From a virus: DNA of 38,901 nucleotides. The position numbers and the translations under genes were made by a program. Of the stretch, positions 196 through 37,060 are shown piece by piece; position 1 is the stretch's first letter, and each line of letters starts with the position of its first letter. Location: the IMG/VR virus record IMGVR_UViG_3300047444_000812, positions 1-38,901 of that record; one strand, written 5' to 3'. The notes beneath the pieces are model-generated. The model was given only the letters and a program-made list of their open reading frames with translations. It was not told the DNA's origin and did not search any database.

Positions 196-290
196 TTTAC
201 TCTACGTGTTTAAGGCAGGTTTTCGGGGGTAAATGGGCGTTTTTCAGAGGTCATTGGTACAATGTACCAACCCCTTTCACAATTGTACCA
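188..290. repeat. integrase arm-type repeats, left arm
   Basis: Copies of TGGTACA or its complement TGTACCA occur at 188-194, 255-261, 263-269 and 284-290. The same heptamer occurs as a pair with 11-bp register beside both right-hand cores (35728 and 35739; 38528 and 38539). Repeats shared by both arms of an attachment region are expected for tyrosine integrase arm sites. The 255-269 pair forms a palindrome over the possible upstream int start. Confidence 0.6.
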
Positions 291-297
291 GTTGACC

Positions 298-1422
298 ATG
301 GCCACGATCAGAGCACGGAAACGCACCGACGGCAGCATCAGTTACACGGCACAGATACGCCTGTTTCGCGATGGAGCGCAAGTTTACCAAGAGAGCCAGA
401 CCTTCGCCCGAAAACAGGCCGCACAGGCTTGGGTTCGAAAGCGTGAAACTGAATTGGATCAGCCTGGTGCCATCGAGCGGGCTAACCGCAAGGGCGCTAC
501 AGTCAAGGAGATGATTGACCGTTATTTGCTTGAAATGGAAAAGGTCCGGCCATTGGGCAAAACCAAGTCGGCGACGCTCAAGGCGATCAGTGAATCGTAC
601 CTGGGCAAACTCAATGATCAGGACATTAACAGCCAGCAGTTGGTGGAATATGCGCTATGGCGCATGGGCGAGGAGGGCGGGAGTGTCCAGCCCCAGACGG
701 CCGGTAACGATCTCGCCCATCTCGGTGCCGTGCTCTCGATTGCCCGGCCTGCATGGGGGTATGAGATTAACTCCCACGCAATGGCAGACGCCCGAAAGGT
801 GCTGAAAAAGCTCGGCTACAACATGAAAAGCCGTGAGCGCGACCGACGGCCTACCCTGGATGAACTGGACAAACTGCTGACGCACTTTCGAGGAATTCAA
901 GCCCGGAGGCCAACTTCGATCAACATGCTCAAGTTGACGGGATTTGCATTGTTTTCCACTCGTCGACAGGAGGAAATTACGCGTATTCAGTGGGCGGATC
1001 TGGACGAGGAAGGCCAACGGGTGTTGGTACGCGACATGAAGAACCCCGGCCAGAAGATAGGCAACGATGTTTGGTGTCATTTACCGCCAGAGGCCTTGGC
1101 CATTCTTCAGACAATGCCAAAGTCGTTACCCGAGATTTTCCCCTACAGCGCTGAATCCGTGTCCACGTCCTGGACCAGGGCTTGCAAGATCCTGGGCATC
1201 GAGGATTTGCACTTTCATGATCTGCGTCATGATGGTGTGAGTCGACTGTTTGAAATGGATTGGGATATTCCACGAGTCGCTAGCGTTTCGGGGCACAGGG
1301 ATTGGAACTCGATGCGTCGTTATACCCATCTACGTGGTCGCGGCGATATTTATGCGAATTGGAAGTGGTTGGAAAAAATCCTGCAGGCGCCCGTTAAATT
1401 GGGCGCCAGGACGTTGAGGTAG
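298..1422 (+). CDS. int: Phage integrase (tyrosine recombinase, dusA-specific)
   Basis: This enzyme catalyses site-specific integration and excision at dusA. From ATG 298 it has 374 residues. An N-terminal arm-binding region (RARKRTDGSISYTAQIR) and a core-binding domain precede the catalytic domain. Recognisable catalytic residues are R222/R223 (STRRQEE), H307 and R310 (HDLRH), H333 (SGHRDW) and the nucleophile Y342 (RRYTHL). An upstream ATG at 262 would add 12 residues and has a weak AGAGG before it; 298 is preferred because MATIRARKR is the usual start of such integrases. It lies next to attL with arm-type repeats in its leader, so autoregulation is likely. It converges with the PrtN-like gene, one base apart. 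Confidence 0.93.
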   Translation: MATIRARKRTDGSISYTAQIRLFRDGAQVYQESQTFARKQAAQAWVRKRETELDQPGAIERANRKGATVKEMIDRYLLEMEKVRPLGKTKSATLKAISESYLGKLNDQDINSQQLVEYALWRMGEEGGSVQPQTAGNDLAHLGAVLSIARPAWGYEINSHAMADARKVLKKLGYNMKSRERDRRPTLDELDKLLTHFRGIQARRPTSINMLKLTGFALFSTRRQEEITRIQWADLDEEGQRVLVRDMKNPGQKIGNDVWCHLPPEALAILQTMPKSLPEIFPYSAESVSTSWTRACKILGIEDLHFHDLRHDGVSRLFEMDWDIPRVASVSGHRDWNSMRRYTHLRGRGDIYANWKWLEKILQAPVKLGARTLR

Positions 1423-2395: not shown

Positions 2396-5203
2396 TCAGG
2401 CCTGAAAAATCCAGCACTTCACGATGGGTTGCTTGGTAACGACGGCGTTGGAATGCTTCGCCTGGTGGGCACGCACCGCGCTGTCCGTTGCCTTGTTCGT
2501 GTCGATCAGCTTCCGCGAGCGGGAATCTTTTAGGCGCTCCCGCAGTTCGCTAATGTCGGCGACCTTCTGGCGGTGCTCGGCTGCACACTTGACGAAATCG
2601 TTGAGATTGATGGCGATGGTGTGGTCTTTCTTGCTGTGGTTGACGACCGGGCCGTCAGCGTCCAGGCCTTCGAGGTACTCGTAGACTTCCCAGAATTCGG
2701 CCACGACCGGGTGGTCGGAGCTGATCGACGCTTGCCGCTCGATCGCCATGCGGATTATCTGGGTGCGGGTGTGGCTGATCTGAGCATCGCTGAGGGGCAC
2801 AACCAGGCGCAGGCAGTCGAGCAGGGCAAGCAGTTGGGCATGGTTCTTGTTGATCCGTTCTACGCGGATGTAGCCGCGAAGCTTGTTGCCACAGTGGTCA
2901 CAGTTATCCTGCTCATTCTTAAAGGGCGTCTCACATGCGAAGCAATGGCTGTGCAGGGTGCGTAGCTTGGCCTCGTAACCGGGTATGCGCTGGGCAAACA
3001 AATCCATCACTTCTGATTCTTTGCGAACCGCTTGTAGCAAGAAGTTGCTGAGCTTTGCGCCTTCCAGAGAATTGAGCAGGTCGGCCGCCGCGCGGCTTTC
3101 GGCCGTTACGGTTGGCCGTACAAAGTGCAGTTTCACGATCCGGGTCATGATCGCTTCGGACGCGACAACCGGTGCGTTCTGGCTGATGGCAATGGTTGCG
3201 CGGAAGGGTGGCTCGTAGGTCTCGTTACCCGCAGTTTTGACACCCTTGGTCGCGAGCGTGCCGCCGCCGTAGTAGTCCTTCAGTTCGTCCCATTCAAACG
3301 TTTTGGCGTGGACCTTATCGTCGCCGCTGCGATCCGACTCCAGCAGCACGACGGGCATGCCGGAGATTTGACCCATCAAGCGACTACGACCGGCCTTGGT
3401 GGATTTGGACGGGTCGAAGCCTTCATACCCTTCGCGGCCCAGCAGTTTCCACAGCAGGGTGAGCAAGGTGGTTTTACCCGCACCGGCTTCGCCCGTGGCC
3501 TCCAGGAAGGGGAACGACTGGTACCGCGCGCGGATCTGCTCGGCGAACAACGAACCAAACCAGAAGGTCAACGCGACGGTGCCCTGGGCGCCAAAGCATT
3601 GCCAGAGCAAATCCAGCCAGCGCGCGTCGTAGTCTTTGGTGTCCTTCTGCAGCGCGATCTTCACGCCTTTCTGCAGGCTCTTGAGTTTCAGTTTGCCCAG
3701 CTCGAAGAACTCCTCCTCGTTGATGGTGATGAGCTGCCCTTCCTTGATGGCGATGTCGTTGAATACATAGCAGCCGTACTCCCGGCTGTACCCTACGTAG
3801 TCGATGGTTTGCACGGTTTTGATGCCGAAAAGCTGGTCTTTCATGATCTTGTCCAACTGTTGTCCACTACCGGTGAACACGGCTCCGGCGCCCATGCCGA
3901 GAAGTCTTTTTTTGAATTCGCTGGCGGCTGCCACCTGGCCACCGGTGAAGGTGTTTTTCACTGAGCCGCCGTCATGGGGGAAATCGACGCGGAAGAAGTA
4001 CCAGGACTCATCGGTAATCTCGTTGCGCTGGAAATACAGGGCCTTGGGATAGCAGTTGGCGATCTCGACCACGCAGCCGGACATGCGCAGCGCCTTGGCG
4101 CGACGTGCTTTGTCGTTCAGCTGTTGGTCTTCATGGTTGTCGCTGGCATCCAGTGCCTGCATGGCGCTGTTGAACTTCGAAATGTCCAACTTCCACCAGT
4201 ACAGGCGGGAGTCGAAGCCGAAGTGAAACTCCTCGCGCTCGCGCCACTGGTACATGAGCAGGGCTTTTTCCACGGCGCTTTCTGCGATCAGCAAGGCACC
4301 GTGATGCTTGGCCTCGTCCAGCTCCTTGTCGATCCGCTGGGTGCGGGCTTCGACGTCGTCCATGAACGCCCAACCCTGATGCAGATCGTTCCAGTCGACC
4401 TTACGAGAGTCGGGCTGAGGGATCTGCGCAGCCTCGCAGGTGAACCCAAGGTCACGTGCCTGTCGGACCCACATGCGGGTGTATTTGTGCGCACCAGGTT
4501 CGTTGTCCAGTGCCCAAATGAGCTTTGGCGTTTTACCGCCGCGAACGCTGATCAGGGCTTTCAGCGACTCCTCTGGATAGGCGTTCGAGGAAAGCGCGGC
4601 AACGGCGGGGATGCCATTCAGCACAAGGGCAATGGCATCAAAGATGCCTTCGACGATCCACAGTTCGTCCACCTGCAGCAGATCCACACAGGGCGGCACC
4701 CACCAAACACCCTTGTAGCTATCGCCGGGTTTAAAGCGCGCCTTCTTCTTGCCGAAGCGGTTCGGCTTGTCGATGAGGCGTTCCCAGTAGCCGCCCTTTT
4801 CGAGTGGAAAGCGAACGGTGGCCGAGCCAATGTTCAGATCCCGGTCAAAGTAATGCTCCTGGGAGTACCAGCCTTCAATCTGGCTAACGTCGAAGCCGCG
4901 GGCGAATGTCAGATAGGCCTTGGCACTCGCAGCAGGTTGATCGTCGGTGGCCGGCGCGCGCTTGCTCCAGTCGTCGAACAGGTCGCTATACAGCTCCTTG
5001 ACCGGCTCCATATACCGGCATTTCTGCTCGCGGCCGCAGCGTATGAACCACGGCTCGTCGTAGCGGGAAAACAGCCGCCGCTGATTGCACTGGGGGCACG
5101 TGCCCTTACGCATGTACTGGGTGCCGGCCATGTGTTGCAGACCATAGTCAGCCTCAAGCCGTTGGAGTACATCGGCACGCAGTTGGTGGTCCATGGTCTT
5201 CAC
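2396..5203 (-). CDS. Phage DNA primase-helicase (zinc ribbon, TOPRIM, P-loop ATPase)
   Basis: This 935-aa replication protein has an N-terminal zinc ribbon (C36, C39, C56, C62). It is followed by a TOPRIM primase domain with E185 in WIVEGIFDA and D233 in ALDNE. The helicase part has a Walker A motif, GEAGAGKTT, near residue 570, and LLESDRSGDD as likely Walker B. A second Cys4 cluster lies near residues 754-775. The start is GTG at 5203, overlapping the upstream stop as GTGA with GGAG eight bases before; ATG 5194 is an alternative. P2 itself uses a rolling-circle protein A, which is absent here, so this protein likely drives theta-type or P4-alpha-like replication. Confidence 0.9.
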   Translation of the reverse strand: MKTMDHQLRADVLQRLEADYGLQHMAGTQYMRKGTCPQCNQRRLFSRYDEPWFIRCGREQKCRYMEPVKELYSDLFDDWSKRAPATDDQPAASAKAYLTFARGFDVSQIEGWYSQEHYFDRDLNIGSATVRFPLEKGGYWERLIDKPNRFGKKKARFKPGDSYKGVWWVPPCVDLLQVDELWIVEGIFDAIALVLNGIPAVAALSSNAYPEESLKALISVRGGKTPKLIWALDNEPGAHKYTRMWVRQARDLGFTCEAAQIPQPDSRKVDWNDLHQGWAFMDDVEARTQRIDKELDEAKHHGALLIAESAVEKALLMYQWREREEFHFGFDSRLYWWKLDISKFNSAMQALDASDNHEDQQLNDKARRAKALRMSGCVVEIANCYPKALYFQRNEITDESWYFFRVDFPHDGGSVKNTFTGGQVAAASEFKKRLLGMGAGAVFTGSGQQLDKIMKDQLFGIKTVQTIDYVGYSREYGCYVFNDIAIKEGQLITINEEEFFELGKLKLKSLQKGVKIALQKDTKDYDARWLDLLWQCFGAQGTVALTFWFGSLFAEQIRARYQSFPFLEATGEAGAGKTTLLTLLWKLLGREGYEGFDPSKSTKAGRSRLMGQISGMPVVLLESDRSGDDKVHAKTFEWDELKDYYGGGTLATKGVKTAGNETYEPPFRATIAISQNAPVVASEAIMTRIVKLHFVRPTVTAESRAAADLLNSLEGAKLSNFLLQAVRKESEVMDLFAQRIPGYEAKLRTLHSHCFACETPFKNEQDNCDHCGNKLRGYIRVERINKNHAQLLALLDCLRLVVPLSDAQISHTRTQIIRMAIERQASISSDHPVVAEFWEVYEYLEGLDADGPVVNHSKKDHTIAINLNDFVKCAAEHRQKVADISELRERLKDSRSRKLIDTNKATDSAVRAHQAKHSNAVVTKQPIVKCWIFQA

Positions 5204-28146: not shown

Positions 28147-29901
28147 ATGAACTCTATCGTCGAACTACCTACTGATCACCGCCGGCATGCCAAGCACCTG
28201 TATTGGCAGGGATACCGTGTGTGCGAGATTGCCGAGCTGATCGGCGAGAAGGAAAAGACCCTTCACAGTTGGAAGGCTCGCGACGAATGGGACCGGGCCA
28301 CGCCGCTCGAGCGTATCCAGGCAGCCACTGAGGCCCGCTTGGTGCAACTGATCCTCAAGGACCCCAAGTCCGGCGCGGACTACAAGGAAATCGATCTGCT
28401 CCACCGGCAATTGGAGCGGCAATCCCGAATTCAGCGCTACCAGGGCGGTGGTACCGAGACAGACCTCAACCCTGAACTGGCCAAGCGCAACGCCGGGGAG
28501 AAGCGTAAGCCCAAGCGCAACGACATCCCAGAGGAAGCGGTCGAGAAGTTGATCGAGGCGTTTCTTGAGGGGTGTTTCGACTACCAGAAAGACTGGTACC
28601 GCGCGGGCAATCAACGCACACGCGCCATTCTGAAAAGCCGCCAGATCGGCGCGACGTACTATTTCGCCCGGGAGGCGCTGATCGATGCGCTGACCACTGG
28701 CCGCAACCAGATATTCCTGTCGGCCAGCAAGGCGCAAGCGCACATTTTCAAGGCCTACATCCAAGCCTTCGCCCGCGAGGTGGTGGACATCGATCTCACC
28801 GGTGATCCGATCATTTTGCCGAACGGCGCCGAACTGCATTTCCTTGGTACCAACGCCCGGACGGCCCAGGGTTATCACGGCAATTTCTATTTCGACGAAT
28901 TCTTCTGGACCTTCAAGTTCAACGAACTGAACAAGGTCGCCTCCGGCATGGCGATGCAGAAGCAATACCGCCGGACGTACTTCTCGACGCCGAGCTCGAT
29001 GGCGCATGAGGCCTATACCTTCTGGACCGGGGAGCGCTTCAACAAGGGCAAGCCGACCGCCCAGCAATTGAAGTTGGACGTCAGCCATGACGCCCTGCAG
29101 CAAGGCAAACTCTGCGACGACCGGATCTGGCGTCAGATCGTCACCATCCTGGATGCGGAAGAAAGGGGCTGCGACCTGTTCGACATCGACGAGCTGCGGC
29201 TCGAATACGATGCGGCGGCGTTCCAGAACCTGCTGATGTGCCAGTTTGTCGACGACGGCGCGAGCATCTTCCCCCTGAACATGTTGCAGCCGTGCATGGT
29301 GGACAGTTGGTCGATCTGGACCGACTACCAACCCTTCGCCGCCAGACCCTTCGCCGATCGGCAGGTGTGGGTTGGGTATGACCCGGCAGAGTCGGGCGAC
29401 ACCGCCGGCTTGATCGTGGTCGCACCGCCACTGGTACCGGGCGGCAAATTCCGCGTGCTGGAGCGTCACCAGTTCCGTGGCATGGACTTCGCCGCCCAGG
29501 CCGAGACGATTCGCCAGGTTACGCGGCGTTACTGGGTCACCTACATCGGCATCGACACCACCGGCCTTGGCAGTGCCGTAGCGCAGCTGGTGCGCCAATT
29601 CTTCCCCGCGCTGCGCACGTTCTCCTACAGCCCCGAGGTCAAGACCCGTCTGGTGATGAAGGCATGGGACGTGATCAGCAAGGGACGGCTGGAGTTCGAT
29701 GCCGGCTGGACGGATTTGGCCCAGTCGCTGATGGCCATCCGCAAGACAGTCACCGCCGGTGGGCGTCAGTTCACCTACACCGCCGGACGTACCGATAACA
29801 CCGGCCACGCCGATCTGGCGTGGGCACTCTTTCATGCATTGCACAACGAGCCGCTGGAAGGCCAGACCGTGGCCAACACCGGTTTTATGGAGATTTACTG
29901 A
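28147..29901 (+). CDS. P: Terminase large subunit P (ATPase)
   Basis: The 584-aa packaging motor has an N-terminal helix-turn-helix (YRVCEIAELIGEKEKTLHSW). A Walker A-like KSRQIGATYY lies near residue 163 and Walker B YFDEFFW near 247. A C-terminal nuclease region begins near residue 410 (VGYDPAESGDTAGL). The stop overlaps the portal start as TGATG. Confidence 0.95.
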   Translation: MNSIVELPTDHRRHAKHLYWQGYRVCEIAELIGEKEKTLHSWKARDEWDRATPLERIQAATEARLVQLILKDPKSGADYKEIDLLHRQLERQSRIQRYQGGGTETDLNPELAKRNAGEKRKPKRNDIPEEAVEKLIEAFLEGCFDYQKDWYRAGNQRTRAILKSRQIGATYYFAREALIDALTTGRNQIFLSASKAQAHIFKAYIQAFAREVVDIDLTGDPIILPNGAELHFLGTNARTAQGYHGNFYFDEFFWTFKFNELNKVASGMAMQKQYRRTYFSTPSSMAHEAYTFWTGERFNKGKPTAQQLKLDVSHDALQQGKLCDDRIWRQIVTILDAEERGCDLFDIDELRLEYDAAAFQNLLMCQFVDDGASIFPLNMLQPCMVDSWSIWTDYQPFAARPFADRQVWVGYDPAESGDTAGLIVVAPPLVPGGKFRVLERHQFRGMDFAAQAETIRQVTRRYWVTYIGIDTTGLGSAVAQLVRQFFPALRTFSYSPEVKTRLVMKAWDVISKGRLEFDAGWTDLAQSLMAIRKTVTAGGRQFTYTAGRTDNTGHADLAWALFHALHNEPLEGQTVANTGFMEIY

Positions 29902-30956
29902 TGAGCAGCCGCCGCAATCGCCGCCAGGTACAGCCCGCCGCATCTCAATCAATCGAAGGTGAACACCTGGCCCAGGCCGGGGGCGGTCAGTCGATGGCAT
30001 TCACCTTCGGCGATCCGGTACCGGTGCTCGATGGCAAGGAAATCCTCGACTACCTGGAGTGCTGGTCAAACGGCCGCTGGTACGAGCCGCCGGTATCGCT
30101 GGATGGGCTGGCGAAGTCCTCGAAGGCAAGCGTGTATCTGCAGTCGGGACTGATCTTCAAACGCAATGCTTTGGCCCGCACGTTCGTCCCGCACCGCCTT
30201 CTGAGCCGGCAGGCCTTCGAACAGATCGTCATGGATTGGGGCTGGTCGGGAAACCTCTACCTGGAGAAGCGCGACAACATGCTCCGGCAGGCCTTGGGCT
30301 TAAAGCCCTGCCTGGCGAAGTACATCCGCCGTGGCGTCGACCTGGACACTTACTACCAGGTGCAAGGCTGGAAGGATGAACACGAATTCAAGCCTGGGAG
30401 CGTATGTCACCTGCGGGTGGCGGACATCAACCAGGAAATCTACGGGCTGCCGGAATGGCTCCCGGCTTTGCAGAGTGCGCTGCTCAATGAAAGCGCCACG
30501 CTGTTCCGCCGCAAGTACTACCAGAACGGCAGCCATGCGGGATTCATCATGTACATGACCGACGCCGCCCAGAACGAGGATTTCGTCAACGATTTGCGGA
30601 CGGCGATGAAGAACAGCAAAGGCCCGGGCAACTTCCGCAACCTATTCATGTACGCACCTGGTGGCAAGAAGGATGGCCTGCAGCTGATTCCGATCAGCGA
30701 GGTGGCCGCCAAGGATGACTTCGGTGCGATCAAAAATATCAGCCGCGACGATCAGCTCGCGATGTTGCGTATACCACCTCAATTGATGGGGGTGGTTCCA
30801 CAAAACGCTGGGGGCTTTGGATCGATCCGCGATGCGGCTCAGGTTTGGGCTGTCAACGAGCTGGAGCCGGAGCAAGCCAGGCTGCTGCAGATCAATGATT
30901 GGCTGGGAGAGGAGGTGGTGAGCTTCCGGCCATATGAGGTACCGGCGCAAGGGTGA
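29901..30956 (+). CDS. Q: Portal protein Q
   Basis: The 351-aa product begins MSSRRNRRQVQPAASQSIEG and matches the P2 portal family, with FGDPVPVLDGKEILDYLECW and MYAPGGKKDGLQLIPISEVA. It forms the head vertex through which DNA is packaged. ATG 29901 overlaps the P stop by one base. Confidence 0.95.
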   Translation: MSSRRNRRQVQPAASQSIEGEHLAQAGGGQSMAFTFGDPVPVLDGKEILDYLECWSNGRWYEPPVSLDGLAKSSKASVYLQSGLIFKRNALARTFVPHRLLSRQAFEQIVMDWGWSGNLYLEKRDNMLRQALGLKPCLAKYIRRGVDLDTYYQVQGWKDEHEFKPGSVCHLRVADINQEIYGLPEWLPALQSALLNESATLFRRKYYQNGSHAGFIMYMTDAAQNEDFVNDLRTAMKNSKGPGNFRNLFMYAPGGKKDGLQLIPISEVAAKDDFGAIKNISRDDQLAMLRIPPQLMGVVPQNAGGFGSIRDAAQVWAVNELEPEQARLLQINDWLGEEVVSFRPYEVPAQG

Positions 30957-32886: not shown

Positions 32887-33102
32887 TTAGCCGTTGCGTG
32901 CGGCCCGACCCAGCGCCTTGAGTGCCGTATTGTGCGCCTCCGTTGCCCGCATTACGGCGTCGGCATACTCCATCAGGTAGGCGATTGCCTCGTCACCCCC
33001 GGCTTCTCCTAGCGCCTCCAAACACGCTAGCTGGCTAGCGCTGGCCGTCGAGTGTTCCTTGGCTTCGCGTATCAGGTAGGCCACAGCGTCTGTCTTGCTC
33101 AT
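32887..33102 (-). CDS. Hypothetical small protein, 71 aa
   Basis: The product begins MSKTDAVAYLIREAKEHSTA and is probably all helical. GGAG lies eight bases before ATG 33102. It is the second gene of a leftward unit (76, 71 and 58 aa) ending at the terminator at 32636. Small genes of this type are found near the portal/cos end in Pseudomonas P2-like phages. The function is unknown. Confidence 0.7.
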   Translation of the reverse strand: MSKTDAVAYLIREAKEHSTASASQLACLEALGEAGGDEAIAYLMEYADAVMRATEAHNTALKALGRAARNG

Positions 33103-33179
33103 CGATATCACTCCATATTGCACACCGACGCACCATTGCCCCGGGTTCCTTCCAGTTCGGTTCGTTATGGTAATGGCAG

Positions 33180-33410
33180 TCAATCCGGAAGGCGGTCGGC
33201 CGCGTCCACCAGTTCGCGCACACACCGCACCAGCTCGGCCTGCGCTTTTTGATAAGAAGCAGTCGCCTGCTCGGCCAGCGCCGCATATTCGTCGAACTTA
33301 TCGCTGTCGTTCGTTTCCATCAGGTCCAGAGCCGTACATATTGCTTTGCCATGCACATCCAGCATTTGCAAATGAGGCACAAGCGAAATCGCATCAATCA
33401 TCAGGGGCAT
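33180..33410 (-). CDS. Hypothetical small protein, 76 aa
   Basis: The product begins MPLMIDAISLVPHLQMLDVH and ends ELVDAADRLPD, with a helical C-terminal half. ATG 33410 has AAGGA about nine bases upstream; ATG 33428 is an alternative. It is the first gene of the leftward unit that starts about 200 bases from cos. No domain is recognised. Confidence 0.7.
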   Translation of the reverse strand: MPLMIDAISLVPHLQMLDVHGKAICTALDLMETNDSDKFDEYAALAEQATASYQKAQAELVRCVRELVDAADRLPD

Positions 33411-33614
33411 GGTGGGGATTCCTTTCATTGTGTGGAAATTGTTAACAGGTAACAGCGGAAAAGTCTTTCCAGTTAGGGGCAAAATTTTTCACTCGCTACA
33501 GCTGCATCGTGGTCCGATTACGGTCTGTTCGTAAAGGATGATGCCAGGCGCCGTTCGACCACTCACGTTTCGATCATTCGCCACGTAGGAGACGTTTCTA
33601 ACCTGGCGCGCGCA

Positions 33615-33633
33615 GTCGTCCCCCCGCCACGCC
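33615..33633 (-). other. Candidate cos site
   Basis: The minus strand reads GGCGTGGCGGGGGGACGAC, followed by TGCGCGC. Its first 12 bases equal the start of the phage 186 cohesive end, and the overall pattern (GGCG-GGCGGGG then ACTGCGCGC) fits the left end of P2 as I recall it. Orientation is correct: it reads toward the methylase, portal and terminase genes, as in P2. The surrounding 33411-33800 holds no other gene. Confidence 0.65.
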
Positions 33634-33814
33634 TGCGGGCTAAATGTGTCGTTTTATCTGCACTCCCTGCGGTTGCTTTGGCGCGGGCCTGGCTGGGCTT
33701 GCTCTCGCGTTACTGGGGCTGAAAAAGCCTGCGAATGCCTGCAAGGGCGGGCTGTTTTGTGAAGGCTGCTGGAGCGCAGTGGGGAATGGATTTTGAGAGG
33801 TGGCTCGGGAAAAG

Positions 33815-34085
33815 GGTTAGTTTTTGAAACGGCATCCTGAGAGCGGCTGAAGCGCCTGTATTTACTGGGTTTTGGAGCTAACTTTGGAGGGTTAGTTATG
33901 GTTAGGTCTGAGGTTAGTATTTTTTAAGATACTGATTTATAAGGGTTTTATTTACTGGGTTTTTAACATCTATAAAGGTTAGGAAATAACCCTGAGCTAA
34001 CCAAAACCTAACCAGCGGCAGTCGTCGCAAAGTCGCGCAGCACAAGGCTTTCAGGGCGGTCAGTAAAAAACTAACCTTCCTAACC
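33815..34085. repeat. GGTTAG iteron cluster
   Basis: GGTTAG occurs at 33815, 33890, 33900, 33912 and 33977. Its complement CTAACC occurs at 33997, 34008, 34071 and 34080. That is nine copies in 271 bases, with orientation switching near 33990. TTTACTG also repeats at 33861 and 33951, with its complement at 34061. No convincing gene lies here. Such iterons are typical of replication origins or regulator arrays. Confidence 0.75.
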
Positions 34086-34267
34086 GTTTTCCGAGGGGTC
34101 AACATGAAAAGCCGAAAGCACCTAGGGGGAGGGCGCTGGCTCAAGTCCGTCAGTTGCTGTGTACTCACGTTGGTGCGCAAACACTCCCAGAATTCAGTAA
34201 CTGTCACCGAAACTGTCACCAGTTCTATGCAGCGTCACCTTGATACCGCTGGAAGCCTTGAAAATAG

Positions 34268-34317
34268 TGGAGCGGGTGAAGCGAATCGAACCCTCGTTAT
34301 CAGCTTGGGAGGCTGAA
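34268..34317 (-). pseudogene. tRNA-Gly 3' fragment
   Basis: The minus strand matches the 3' portion of a tRNA-Gly: a perfect anticodon arm, TCAGC-CTCCCAA-GCTGA (CCC anticodon), then a T-arm with TTCGATT and the end CACCCGCTCCA. The 5' half is absent; the sequence to the right of 34317 does not supply GCGGGTG. One T-stem base is mismatched. Such 3' fragments usually mark an attachment site of an element that once used that tRNA gene. Confidence 0.65.
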
Positions 34318-34421
34318 AGCGGAAAGCTCAGATCGTAAAGGGGGGAAATGAGTCATAAGTAATGAGTACTAGTATGTCTGCTATGGTAGTAAAACATTTA
34401 CGGTATGCGAGAGAGTAGTTG

Positions 34422-35687
34422 ATGCTGACGAATAGAAGTGTTGTTTCGACACCTGAAGAAATACGCCAGGCGGTTTTAGATGCTCGCAATCTACTAGGGG
34501 GAGGAAGTTGGCTGGATGATCAGTCGAAATTATTACCCGCTGAGCCATTATTGTTTTCTAGCTTGAAGATGGTTTCCGAAGGGATGCTAGTCAATAGTAT
34601 GTCGAATGATATAAAGTTAATGCATCCGATAGCCGAGGCGATTGTAGGTGGAGAGCGAATACTTGCTGAGTATGAAAAAACCGGAAAATTATTCTTTGCT
34701 AATTTTTTGCATCTGCTTAACTCTGTTAGTGATGTTGCTAAATATAAAGATCGAATTTTTGGTGTTGATGAACGAGTTAATAAGCTCAAAACTCCAAAGT
34801 GGAGGTCTACACTTTATGAACTCCTATCAGCTTGCTCTTTAGCGTCTCAGTGTGACGTAAAATTAATTACTGAAGGTAACGACCCTACTCCCGATATGGT
34901 CGCGACCGAACTCGGGTTGTTTTTTGAATGCAAGGCAAGGAGCGAGCCAGAGCAGAAAGTCACGGCATTTGTTGATGCCTTTCGGAAGCAGGTGCTTGGC
35001 GAGGTGGTCAGGCTGTCGCGGCAAGCTAGCTATGGTTTGAAGATTCTGATCGATGTTCACGATGAAAAAATTCTGGGTGAGTTGGTGCGGTTGATTGGCG
35101 ATATGCTGAGCAAACACCAGCGTTCTCTATCAATGCCCGAAGTCGACATGACAATTGAGTATTACGATCCTCAACCATATGCATTGCCGTACCCAATGCC
35201 GATGCTTTCAAGTCAGCTTTGGCAGTGGATGGTCGGCTTTGATGATTTTGATAGCTGGCATTATGTTCTGCCAGGCGGAGAGTTTGAGTTGGATAATTGC
35301 TCAAATATCATGGTAAAGAATTTCAAGCGCCCATTGCTTGTATGTGTTAGGTCAACTGTATTAAGTTCAGTGTCGGCAAAGCTTCAGACCGCAATAAAGG
35401 ATGCCTGTAAAAGACAGTTGAGGGAGCACCGTCCCGGGGTTGTCAGGTTTTTAATAAATACTCGGTTCTTTTCATTGCAGTCTACTCAGGAGTCCATCTT
35501 TGTAGAGCTACAGTCTCTTGCCGTAAAACTTGTGGAGGAATATAAGAGCAGGCTCGCCGCTGTTTATTTTGATGTTGTAATTCCGCCTAAATTTGGGGAG
35601 GTTGGAGTCAGCTACCGGCAAATTTATGCTTCAAGAAAGAGCTATGCTCAAGTATTGGATTGTCTGCCTCCAATTATATTGCTTTGA
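34422..35687 (+). CDS. AT-rich cargo protein with PD-(D/E)XK nuclease-like motif, 421 aa
   Basis: No close family is recognised. Residues 133-171 show the order E133 (LYELLSAC), P157-D158 (NDPTPDMVA) and E169-x-K171 (LFFECKAR), with hydrophobic strands before each, as in PD-(D/E)XK nucleases. The N-terminal 120 residues look helical, and the C-terminal half is mixed alpha/beta. Base composition is clearly lower in GC than the phage genes. It starts at ATG 34422 after a GAGAGAG. It lies between cos and the attachment site, the slot that holds the cytotoxin gene in phiCTX. A defence or superinfection-exclusion nuclease is a reasonable guess, not a demonstration. Confidence 0.75.
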   Translation: MLTNRSVVSTPEEIRQAVLDARNLLGGGSWLDDQSKLLPAEPLLFSSLKMVSEGMLVNSMSNDIKLMHPIAEAIVGGERILAEYEKTGKLFFANFLHLLNSVSDVAKYKDRIFGVDERVNKLKTPKWRSTLYELLSACSLASQCDVKLITEGNDPTPDMVATELGLFFECKARSEPEQKVTAFVDAFRKQVLGEVVRLSRQASYGLKILIDVHDEKILGELVRLIGDMLSKHQRSLSMPEVDMTIEYYDPQPYALPYPMPMLSSQLWQWMVGFDDFDSWHYVLPGGEFELDNCSNIMVKNFKRPLLVCVRSTVLSSVSAKLQTAIKDACKRQLREHRPGVVRFLINTRFFSLQSTQESIFVELQSLAVKLVEEYKSRLAAVYFDVVIPPKFGEVGVSYRQIYASRKSYAQVLDCLPPIILL

Positions 35688-36083: not shown

Positions 36084-36652
36084 CGCATTTCCTCCGTGAG
36101 CAGGGAAGCGTAGCAGCTTCAACACTTCATGAGAGGGATGAAGTCCGGTTCTAATTCCAGGCGTATTGAACCGCATCGACAGTGCTCGAGATTGGAGCCG
36201 AAAACGGTTGCTTAAAATTTGCATTTGCTATGGAGGATGAGGGAGAAGTGGCTTTTCGTTGTGGTCGACCGGCAGTAGTCGACCCGTTGCGGTCATTGGT
36301 GTTGCGGCTAATGATCCGAATCTCATGCCACGACGCCTTGGTCACAGATCATGTTTTTTCTAGCCGAGGTGAATGTTATATCAAAAAGATGCGGAAATAA
36401 TTGCATCATCGGCACATCCAGCGCTAAACGCTAGAAAAGATAAAGCCAACACTGGTGAGTGCTGCATACAGCAATTTAGAATAAACATTATTTAATTAAT
36501 TTCAAATGGTTATTGAAAAATTTACATATTAATTTTATTTTTGTGATGGCGGTCTACACTGGGTTGTAAAGATCGGAAGAGAAAGGTGTCAGCTTTAGTA
36601 AGTGTAATATTGAATTTTTAATGTGAACGTGTCGATCAATGTAGGGGGGCAC
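36084..36652. other. Region without a supported gene
   Basis: Overlapping plus (36182-36400) and minus (36151-36345) frames exist, but neither has a ribosome site or recognisable content. From about 36410 the sequence becomes very AT-rich and probably holds the promoter of the 36653 gene. Confidence 0.5.
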
Positions 36653-37060
36653 ATGAAAATCGGCACGTTAAAAAGCGTTTTGTCGGTGTGTATAAGACTA
36701 AGTCGTAATGCCGTTTATGCATTTTTTGTCATCGTGTATGGAATGTCGCTCCTAACTGCACCTGTGCTAGCAGATACAGTCGACCTGGAATTTTCCTATG
36801 GCTTTCCTTCTTTTGGAGGAGGACCTGTTGGGTGCAGTATAATGATGGATAGAGAAGCCTGTACGTCCGAGCCGTTGACTATTATCCCAGACGTTGATGT
36901 AGAAGTTTTAGCGGGATTTGCTGAGGTGAAATACTCTCAAATTAGGCCGCCAAATTGTGTTGTTATTACAGTGCGCCTTTGGGTTGATCATAAAGGATAC
37001 GAAGGGCGTGAGTGTCTGGCTCCATTTGCACATGCAATCGCTCATGTCAAAATCCCATAA
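36653..37060 (+). CDS. Small secreted protein with signal peptide, 135 aa
   Basis: The ATG at 36653 follows AGGGGGG. A long signal peptide with a basic start (MKIGTLKSVLSVCIRLSRNA), a hydrophobic core and a VLA|D cleavage site after residue 40 is clear. The mature part is about 95 residues with four cysteines (GCSIMMDREAC, PPNCVV, GRECL) that could form two disulfides. It would be periplasmic or exported. It is AT-rich and unlike the phage genes. No family is recognised. It precedes the Gly-rich gene by 128 bases on the same strand. Confidence 0.7.
   Translation: MKIGTLKSVLSVCIRLSRNAVYAFFVIVYGMSLLTAPVLADTVDLEFSYGFPSFGGGPVGCSIMMDREACTSEPLTIIPDVDVEVLAGFAEVKYSQIRPPNCVVITVRLWVDHKGYEGRECLAPFAHAIAHVKIP

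Follow-up and report, generated by a model that had tools for sequence, protein, structure and literature searches.

The segment at 33804-34095 is very probably (about 0.88 by our estimate) the vegetative replication origin of a P2-like phage; judging from sequence comparison, it would be read by the phage's own TOPRIM primase-helicase, replacing gpA nick-and-roll replication. The window, that is, the whole stretch of 38,901 nt analysed (IMG/VR record IMGVR_UViG_3300047444_000812), is a phiCTX/P2-like prophage that encodes, besides the genes in Table 1, a PrtN-like gene, Ogr, tail and head genes, terminase and Dam. The array of short sites in this segment tracks the TOPRIM primase-helicase (phrog_1139), is mutually exclusive with gpA, and varies in motif together with the primase, not the integrase. 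The evidence points to a widespread P2-like branch, spanning phages of Pseudomonas, Stutzerimonas, Xanthomonas and relatives, Halomonas and the enterobacterial ESSI2, having swapped gpA rolling circle for an origin read by a primase-helicase, and a candidate origin was located in each. No description of this origin was found in the open-access papers searched.

Nine exact copies of one hexamer lie within 271 bp (33815-34085), with GGTTAG occurring five times on the plus strand and then CTAACC, its minus-strand form, four times (Table 1). The remaining 38.9 kb of the window hold ten more copies, which are scattered. The original prediction placed this cluster far above chance, and both its positions and its excess were confirmed: the GGTTAG count never exceeded four in 2,000 local dinucleotide shuffles, and the top count per 271 bp for all hexamers was seven, reached once, in 150 whole-window shuffles, so the cluster survives a look-elsewhere correction. 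A switch from plus to minus orientation had also been described, and it holds for the exact copies but is less clean when the degenerate, conserved sites of slots 3 and 8 are counted. The same symmetry had been claimed for TTTACTG; plus copies at 33861 and 33951 and a minus copy at 34061 follow it, but this is weak evidence because the whole window holds six copies against 2.0 expected. These TTTACTG elements occupy gaps in the array, are partly kept among relatives and constitute a second element. An outer inverted repeat closes the array on both sides and recurs at the array edges of distant phages, for example L336 (GTCGGGAAAA...TTTTCCCGAC), ESSI2 (CATCGGAAAA...TTTTCCGATG) and Smp131 (ACCACGGGAAAG...CTTTCCCGTGGT).

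Table 1. Features of the candidate origin and of associated genes in the window.
Feature	Position	Strand	Basis or remark
Integrase	262-1422	+	
TOPRIM primase-helicase (phrog_1139), presumed initiator reading the array	2396-5203	-	PHROG bits 1213; Toprim_2; AlphaFold model
C-terminal winged-helix-like domain, presumed origin-binding	2399-2737	-	Separate AlphaFold model, pLDDT 88; weak wHTH matches
Portal gene	29820-30956	+	
cos core (GGCGTGGCGGGGGGACGACTGCGCGC on minus strand)	33608-33633	-	Pattern common to P2-like phages; match to P2/Smp131-type cohesive ends
Left outer inverted-repeat arm, CTCGGGAAAA	33804-33813		Mirrors TTTTCCGAG; kept in 28 relatives
Putative initiator site, slot 1 (GGTTAG)	33815-33820	+	Motif scan, relatives' alignment, slot comparison
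Degenerate site, slot 3 (CTAACT)	33878-33883	-	Kept in 28 relatives; GGTAAT-class slot -205 minus; inside plus half
Putative initiator site, slot 4 (GGTTAG)	33890-33895	+	Motif scan, relatives' alignment, slot comparison
Putative initiator site, slot 5 (GGTTAG)	33900-33905	+	Motif scan, relatives' alignment, slot comparison
Putative initiator site, slot 6 (GGTTAG)	33912-33917	+	Motif scan, relatives' alignment, slot comparison
Presumed DNA-unwinding element, AT-rich, at the centre; TGATTTATAAGG-like core is conserved	33918-33976		Duplex stability; dyad centre
Putative initiator site, slot 7 (GGTTAG)	33977-33982	+	Motif scan, relatives' alignment, slot comparison
Degenerate site, slot 8 (ATAACC)	33986-33991	-	Kept in 28 relatives; GGTAAT-class slot -96 minus
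Putative initiator site, slot 9 (CTAACC)	33997-34002	-	Least conserved copy; motif scan, alignment, slot comparison
Putative initiator site, slot 10 (CTAACC)	34008-34013	-	Motif scan, relatives' alignment, slot comparison
Putative initiator site, slot 11 (CTAACC)	34071-34076	-	Motif scan, relatives' alignment, slot comparison
Putative initiator site, slot 12 (CTAACC)	34080-34085	-	Motif scan, relatives' alignment, slot comparison
Right outer inverted-repeat arm, TTTTCCGAG	34087-34095		Kept in 28 relatives

The sites occupy a set of slots that recurs with other motifs. In Dobby and related Pseudomonas phages, cos is almost unchanged, and an array of the same layout with the motif GGTAATT lies equally far beyond it. 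Relative to the last site, the slots of the GGTAAT class lie at -268+, -259+, -205-, -193+, -183+, -171+, -105+, -96-, -85-, -74-, -9- and 0-, and GGTTAG sites match them within 1-3 bp. Sites of the GGTTAG, GGTAAT and GGTTAC classes fall in matching slots, and AAGTAAG is a further variant word. The outer sites come first, followed by a run of sites with helical spacing (about 10-12 bp); beyond the AT-rich centre, this order is approximately mirrored. With -134 as the axis and a tolerance of 1 bp, five dyad pairs account for ten of the twelve GGTAAT slots, compared with at most four pairs in 1,500 trials of each of two null models of random layouts; because this slot set was picked as the modal one, the dyad-pair test was not a blind one. 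Among the exact sites of the window, only three dyad pairs agree within 2 bp. The computed dyad centre (~33946-33950) falls within the AT-rich stretch, where the 50-bp duplex ranks with the least stable DNA of the window (99.7-99.9th percentile); the ten least stable stretches listed lie near 36480, past the attachment piece described below.

The array was originally placed beside cos, and the cos assignment was confirmed by the match to P2/Smp131-type cohesive ends (the 19-nt cohesive end of Smp131 is GGCGTGGCGGGGAGACGAG; PMC3931495); the array begins about 180 bp past it. A tRNA-3'-end-like piece at 34268-34317, common to many unrelated phages, is probably the attachment site. The left end of the record has no matching repeat of at least 11 bp; the left attachment junction therefore lies outside the window or is different. 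DnaA boxes are absent from the array, the only match in the window being at 36687, and GC skew, with no clear switch at the array, is uninformative. An RNA element was rejected as an explanation of the region on the basis of an Rfam search of 33000-35000, which gave no match, and a promoter cluster was likewise rejected, the promoter search having returned a single poor match, which lies beyond the array at 34240.

The window lacks the P2 A family (PF05840) and encodes the TOPRIM primase-helicase, in agreement with the original statement that the one enzyme stands in place of the other. The AlphaFold model of the whole enzyme (pLDDT 84.7) matches DnaG catalytic cores over residues 82-309. Residues 324-934 match SCCmec Cch (5dgk; Foldseek E 2.6e-15, Z 22.8) and SaPIBov1 Rep (8tch; Z 20.4), the two best matches, both extending through the C-terminal domain, with the next at Z 14.4. 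The predicted fold, a DnaG-type primase with a SaPI-Rep/Cch-like helicase, resembles those of self-loading, origin-binding initiators, and the enzymes of some relatives match DUF927. A wHTH is predicted in the C-terminal domain, which in isolation has winged-helix topology with weak matches (best Z 4.6), including the Cch C terminus and PriRep1, and no significant Foldseek match; the P4 alpha domain was not among the matches listed, which were weak. The only match of its sequence profile against the PDB was the ORC2 winged helix (E = 1.2, not significant), and no single residue column of the winged helix splits GGTTAG readers from AAGTAAG readers. A zinc-ribbon-like insertion (CFACETPF...CDHCG; primase residues about 750-783) is found in the aligned primases of the GGTTAG and AAGTAAG phages and is missing in those of Dobby, Smp131 and other more distant phages.

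Conservation of the motif over its flanks, proposed as a check for relatives with the same primase-helicase, was found in an alignment of 28 distinct relatives, in which motif positions are 93% identical to the window and the DNA between motifs 63%. Thirty further records, most with primases 84-96% identical to that of the window, were examined beyond cos. GGTTAG is missing from two close relatives, of which L351 has an AAGTAAG-variant array and L337 has transposase-like DNA instead; in L337 (G061), a natural insertion case, no array was seen in the 1 kb beyond cos. Scanning viral contigs for the cos pattern yielded 120 P2-like records, and a screen of the 1 kb beyond cos found arrays in only a handful of them. 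Among 50 of these records that were surveyed, 40 encode gpA (PF05840), none of these with an array, and the full-length phrog_1139 primase is encoded in G001, G014 and G047, all with the array, and in G002, whose record ends 346 bp past cos and has no array in that part. Six other records in the survey gave partial primase-like matches (E about 1e-20 to 1e-26), which were not counted as the phrog_1139 enzyme. The top hexamer count beyond cos was 3-5 in gpA records compared with up to 12 in primase records.

More distant primases come with other motifs and, in some cases, other locations. In phi3, whose primase is 30% identical to that of the window, and in its relative L227, 13-16 copies of GGAACA form an array that immediately follows the primase gene, at a distance from int and portal and, in phi3, also from cos. 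A scan of viral contigs with the phi3 primase returned one relative. Two primase-bearing, GC-rich records that extend >4 kb past the portal gene, G093 and G094 (L362-L364), gave no array by the same method and are possibly exceptions or carriers of a different origin type. No array was found in the examined parts of L273, L315 and L321. The apparent absence of the array from G089 and G090 arises because these records stop at the portal gene, and the ZY1 record covers only 1.5 kb past it. Loci of the PfPro group gave no array, and most of them end a few kilobases behind the primase gene, so this group is uninformative on conservation. The motif is kept with the same primase, switches with a divergent primase and is absent from gpA phages, which favours the originally proposed P4-alpha-like origin read by the primase-helicase.

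The array lies about 200 bp from the tRNA-like piece at the right prophage end, and P2-type integrases have repeated arm sites flanking attP (PMC3931495), so arm-type (and excisionase) sites of the phage integrase next to attP were considered. The motif is, however, uncoupled from the integrase. In a comparison of 40 phages with known integrase, with motif classes assigned by eye and pairs that are not independent, the motif was common to 97 of 97 pairs with integrases <50% identical and primases at least 80% identical, but to just 6 of the 52 pairs in which integrase identity is at least 60% and primase identity <72%. L142 (primase 96%) combines a PfPro/Dobby-type integrase with GGTTAG, whereas Dobby, with the same integrase type, has GGTAAT, and the integrases of L432 and L400 are 90.6% identical while their motifs differ. 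The usual set of integrase arm sites is smaller than around twelve sites over 270 bp. The phi3 and Smp131 arrays are kilobases from int/attP; Smp131 attP adjoins int (PMC3931495), and the array is about 2.4 kb away. Binding sites of the terminase, as a cosB-like part of the packaging site, would fit the nearly constant cos-array distance (about 180-200 bp in most of the phiCTX-like group), but many P2-like phages share this cos type without having an array, the large terminases of the window and Dobby are 85% identical and their motifs nonetheless differ, and the arrays of phi3 and PfPro are not beside portal/terminase genes. Covariation and the location of the array in phi3, Smp131 and PfPro led us to reject both integrase and terminase sites, which we consider equally and highly improbable; the primase, and not attP or cos, explains the array.

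Slightly less improbable, though still unlikely, is that the array binds a transcription regulator (repressor, Cox, Ogr or a stand-alone winged-helix protein) and not the initiator. This was the alternative named in the original prediction, and it gained no positive support. Regulators also use dispersed, oriented sites, and the Bro-N proteins that one relative encodes near cos end in a similar winged helix, so the sites of the array could also serve a regulator. Against this, no gene of appreciable length begins next to the window's array, and the sole promoter-like match is the poor one outside it. The link with phrog_1139, the exclusion of gpA, the AT-rich dyad centre and the position of the phi3 array behind the primase gene fit an origin and not an operator.

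The origin reading can be compared with three known systems. P4 served as a positive control, and the same scan recovers its annotated origin sites. In P4 (ori1 and crr), the origin sites are recognised by the C-terminal winged helix of alpha, reportedly the subject of work by Yeo in 2002 (cited in PMC4234260). Like P4, the window combines short sites in multiple copies and both orientations, some at 10-11 bp spacing, with a phage primase-helicase. It is unlike P4 in its motif (GGTTAG compared with the P4 type I repeat TGTTCACC), in having one cluster where P4 splits its origin into ori and crr, separated by about 4.7 kb, and in having an AT-rich dyad at the centre and inverted repeats at the edges. 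Among temperate phages, P2 is the textbook case of rolling-circle replication; sister phages with gpA share the cos type and the head and tail modules with the window, whereas PF05840 is absent from the window and the gpA phages are without the array.

In the SaPI origin (SaPIBov1 type) and the putative SCCmec Cch/Cch2 origin, a self-loading helicase recognises short repeats through its C-terminal domain, with two hexamers proposed; DUF927 has been assigned to Cch, Cch is related to SaPIBov1 Rep, and the SaPIbov1 and SaPI5 primases are of the AEP type (PMC7581432). The window likewise has a multi-copy short motif next to an AT-rich element, and the helicase part of its enzyme has, in the predicted model, the fold of Cch and SaPIBov1 Rep together with the C-terminal domain. 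By contrast, its primase is of the DnaG/TOPRIM type and fused to the helicase, and its phage group has a dyad slot layout and motif classes of its own. SaPI origins are usually directly downstream of the initiator gene, as are the phi3 and L227 arrays with respect to the primase gene, whereas in the window's group the array is at the cos side (33815 in the window, with the gene at 2396-5203).

In the proposed mechanism, the TOPRIM primase/AAA+ helicase would bind the GGTTAG sites via its C-terminal winged helix; binding of the repeats by the initiator is supported indirectly by the covariation of motif and primase. The slots are fixed and roughly mirrored about the AT-rich centre, so two oppositely oriented sets of initiator could assemble. 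These sets would form on either side of the centre, melt it, load there as a pair of helicase rings and prime synthesis to left and right, yielding bidirectional theta replication. An iteron origin with a self-loading primase-helicase would in this way replace initiation by P2 gpA nicking and rolling. A broader picture, to which we give somewhat less than even odds, is that a large P2-like branch uses a dyad origin of about twelve slots with two head-to-head primase-helicase rings and theta replication. In this picture, the winged helix and the slot motif drift together through several classes, every one of which may therefore represent a separate replication-incompatibility group, and stand-alone Bro-N proteins with a similar winged helix may compete for the slots. 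The switch of motif at invariant slots offers a way to test how a self-loading helicase comes to read another DNA word with its winged helix, and the motif series also makes testable whether origin geometry dictates double-ring loading.

Parts of the primase-helicase have counterparts in other genes. Two tandem Bro-N genes near cos in Pseudomonas sp. H9 (L481:196-1071 and 1228-2025; G130) have a C-terminal end like the primase winged helix, and a 290-aa ORF in G120 has a similar winged-helix match; the module for origin binding thus seems to be in circulation among other proteins. A small gene directly behind the primase gene (271-273 aa; L484:1111-1932 and L483:890-1705) is a copy of the AAA+ helicase domain only. 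Such a gene was not seen in the window and is found behind the primase gene in G099, G100, G120-G123 and G134 as well.
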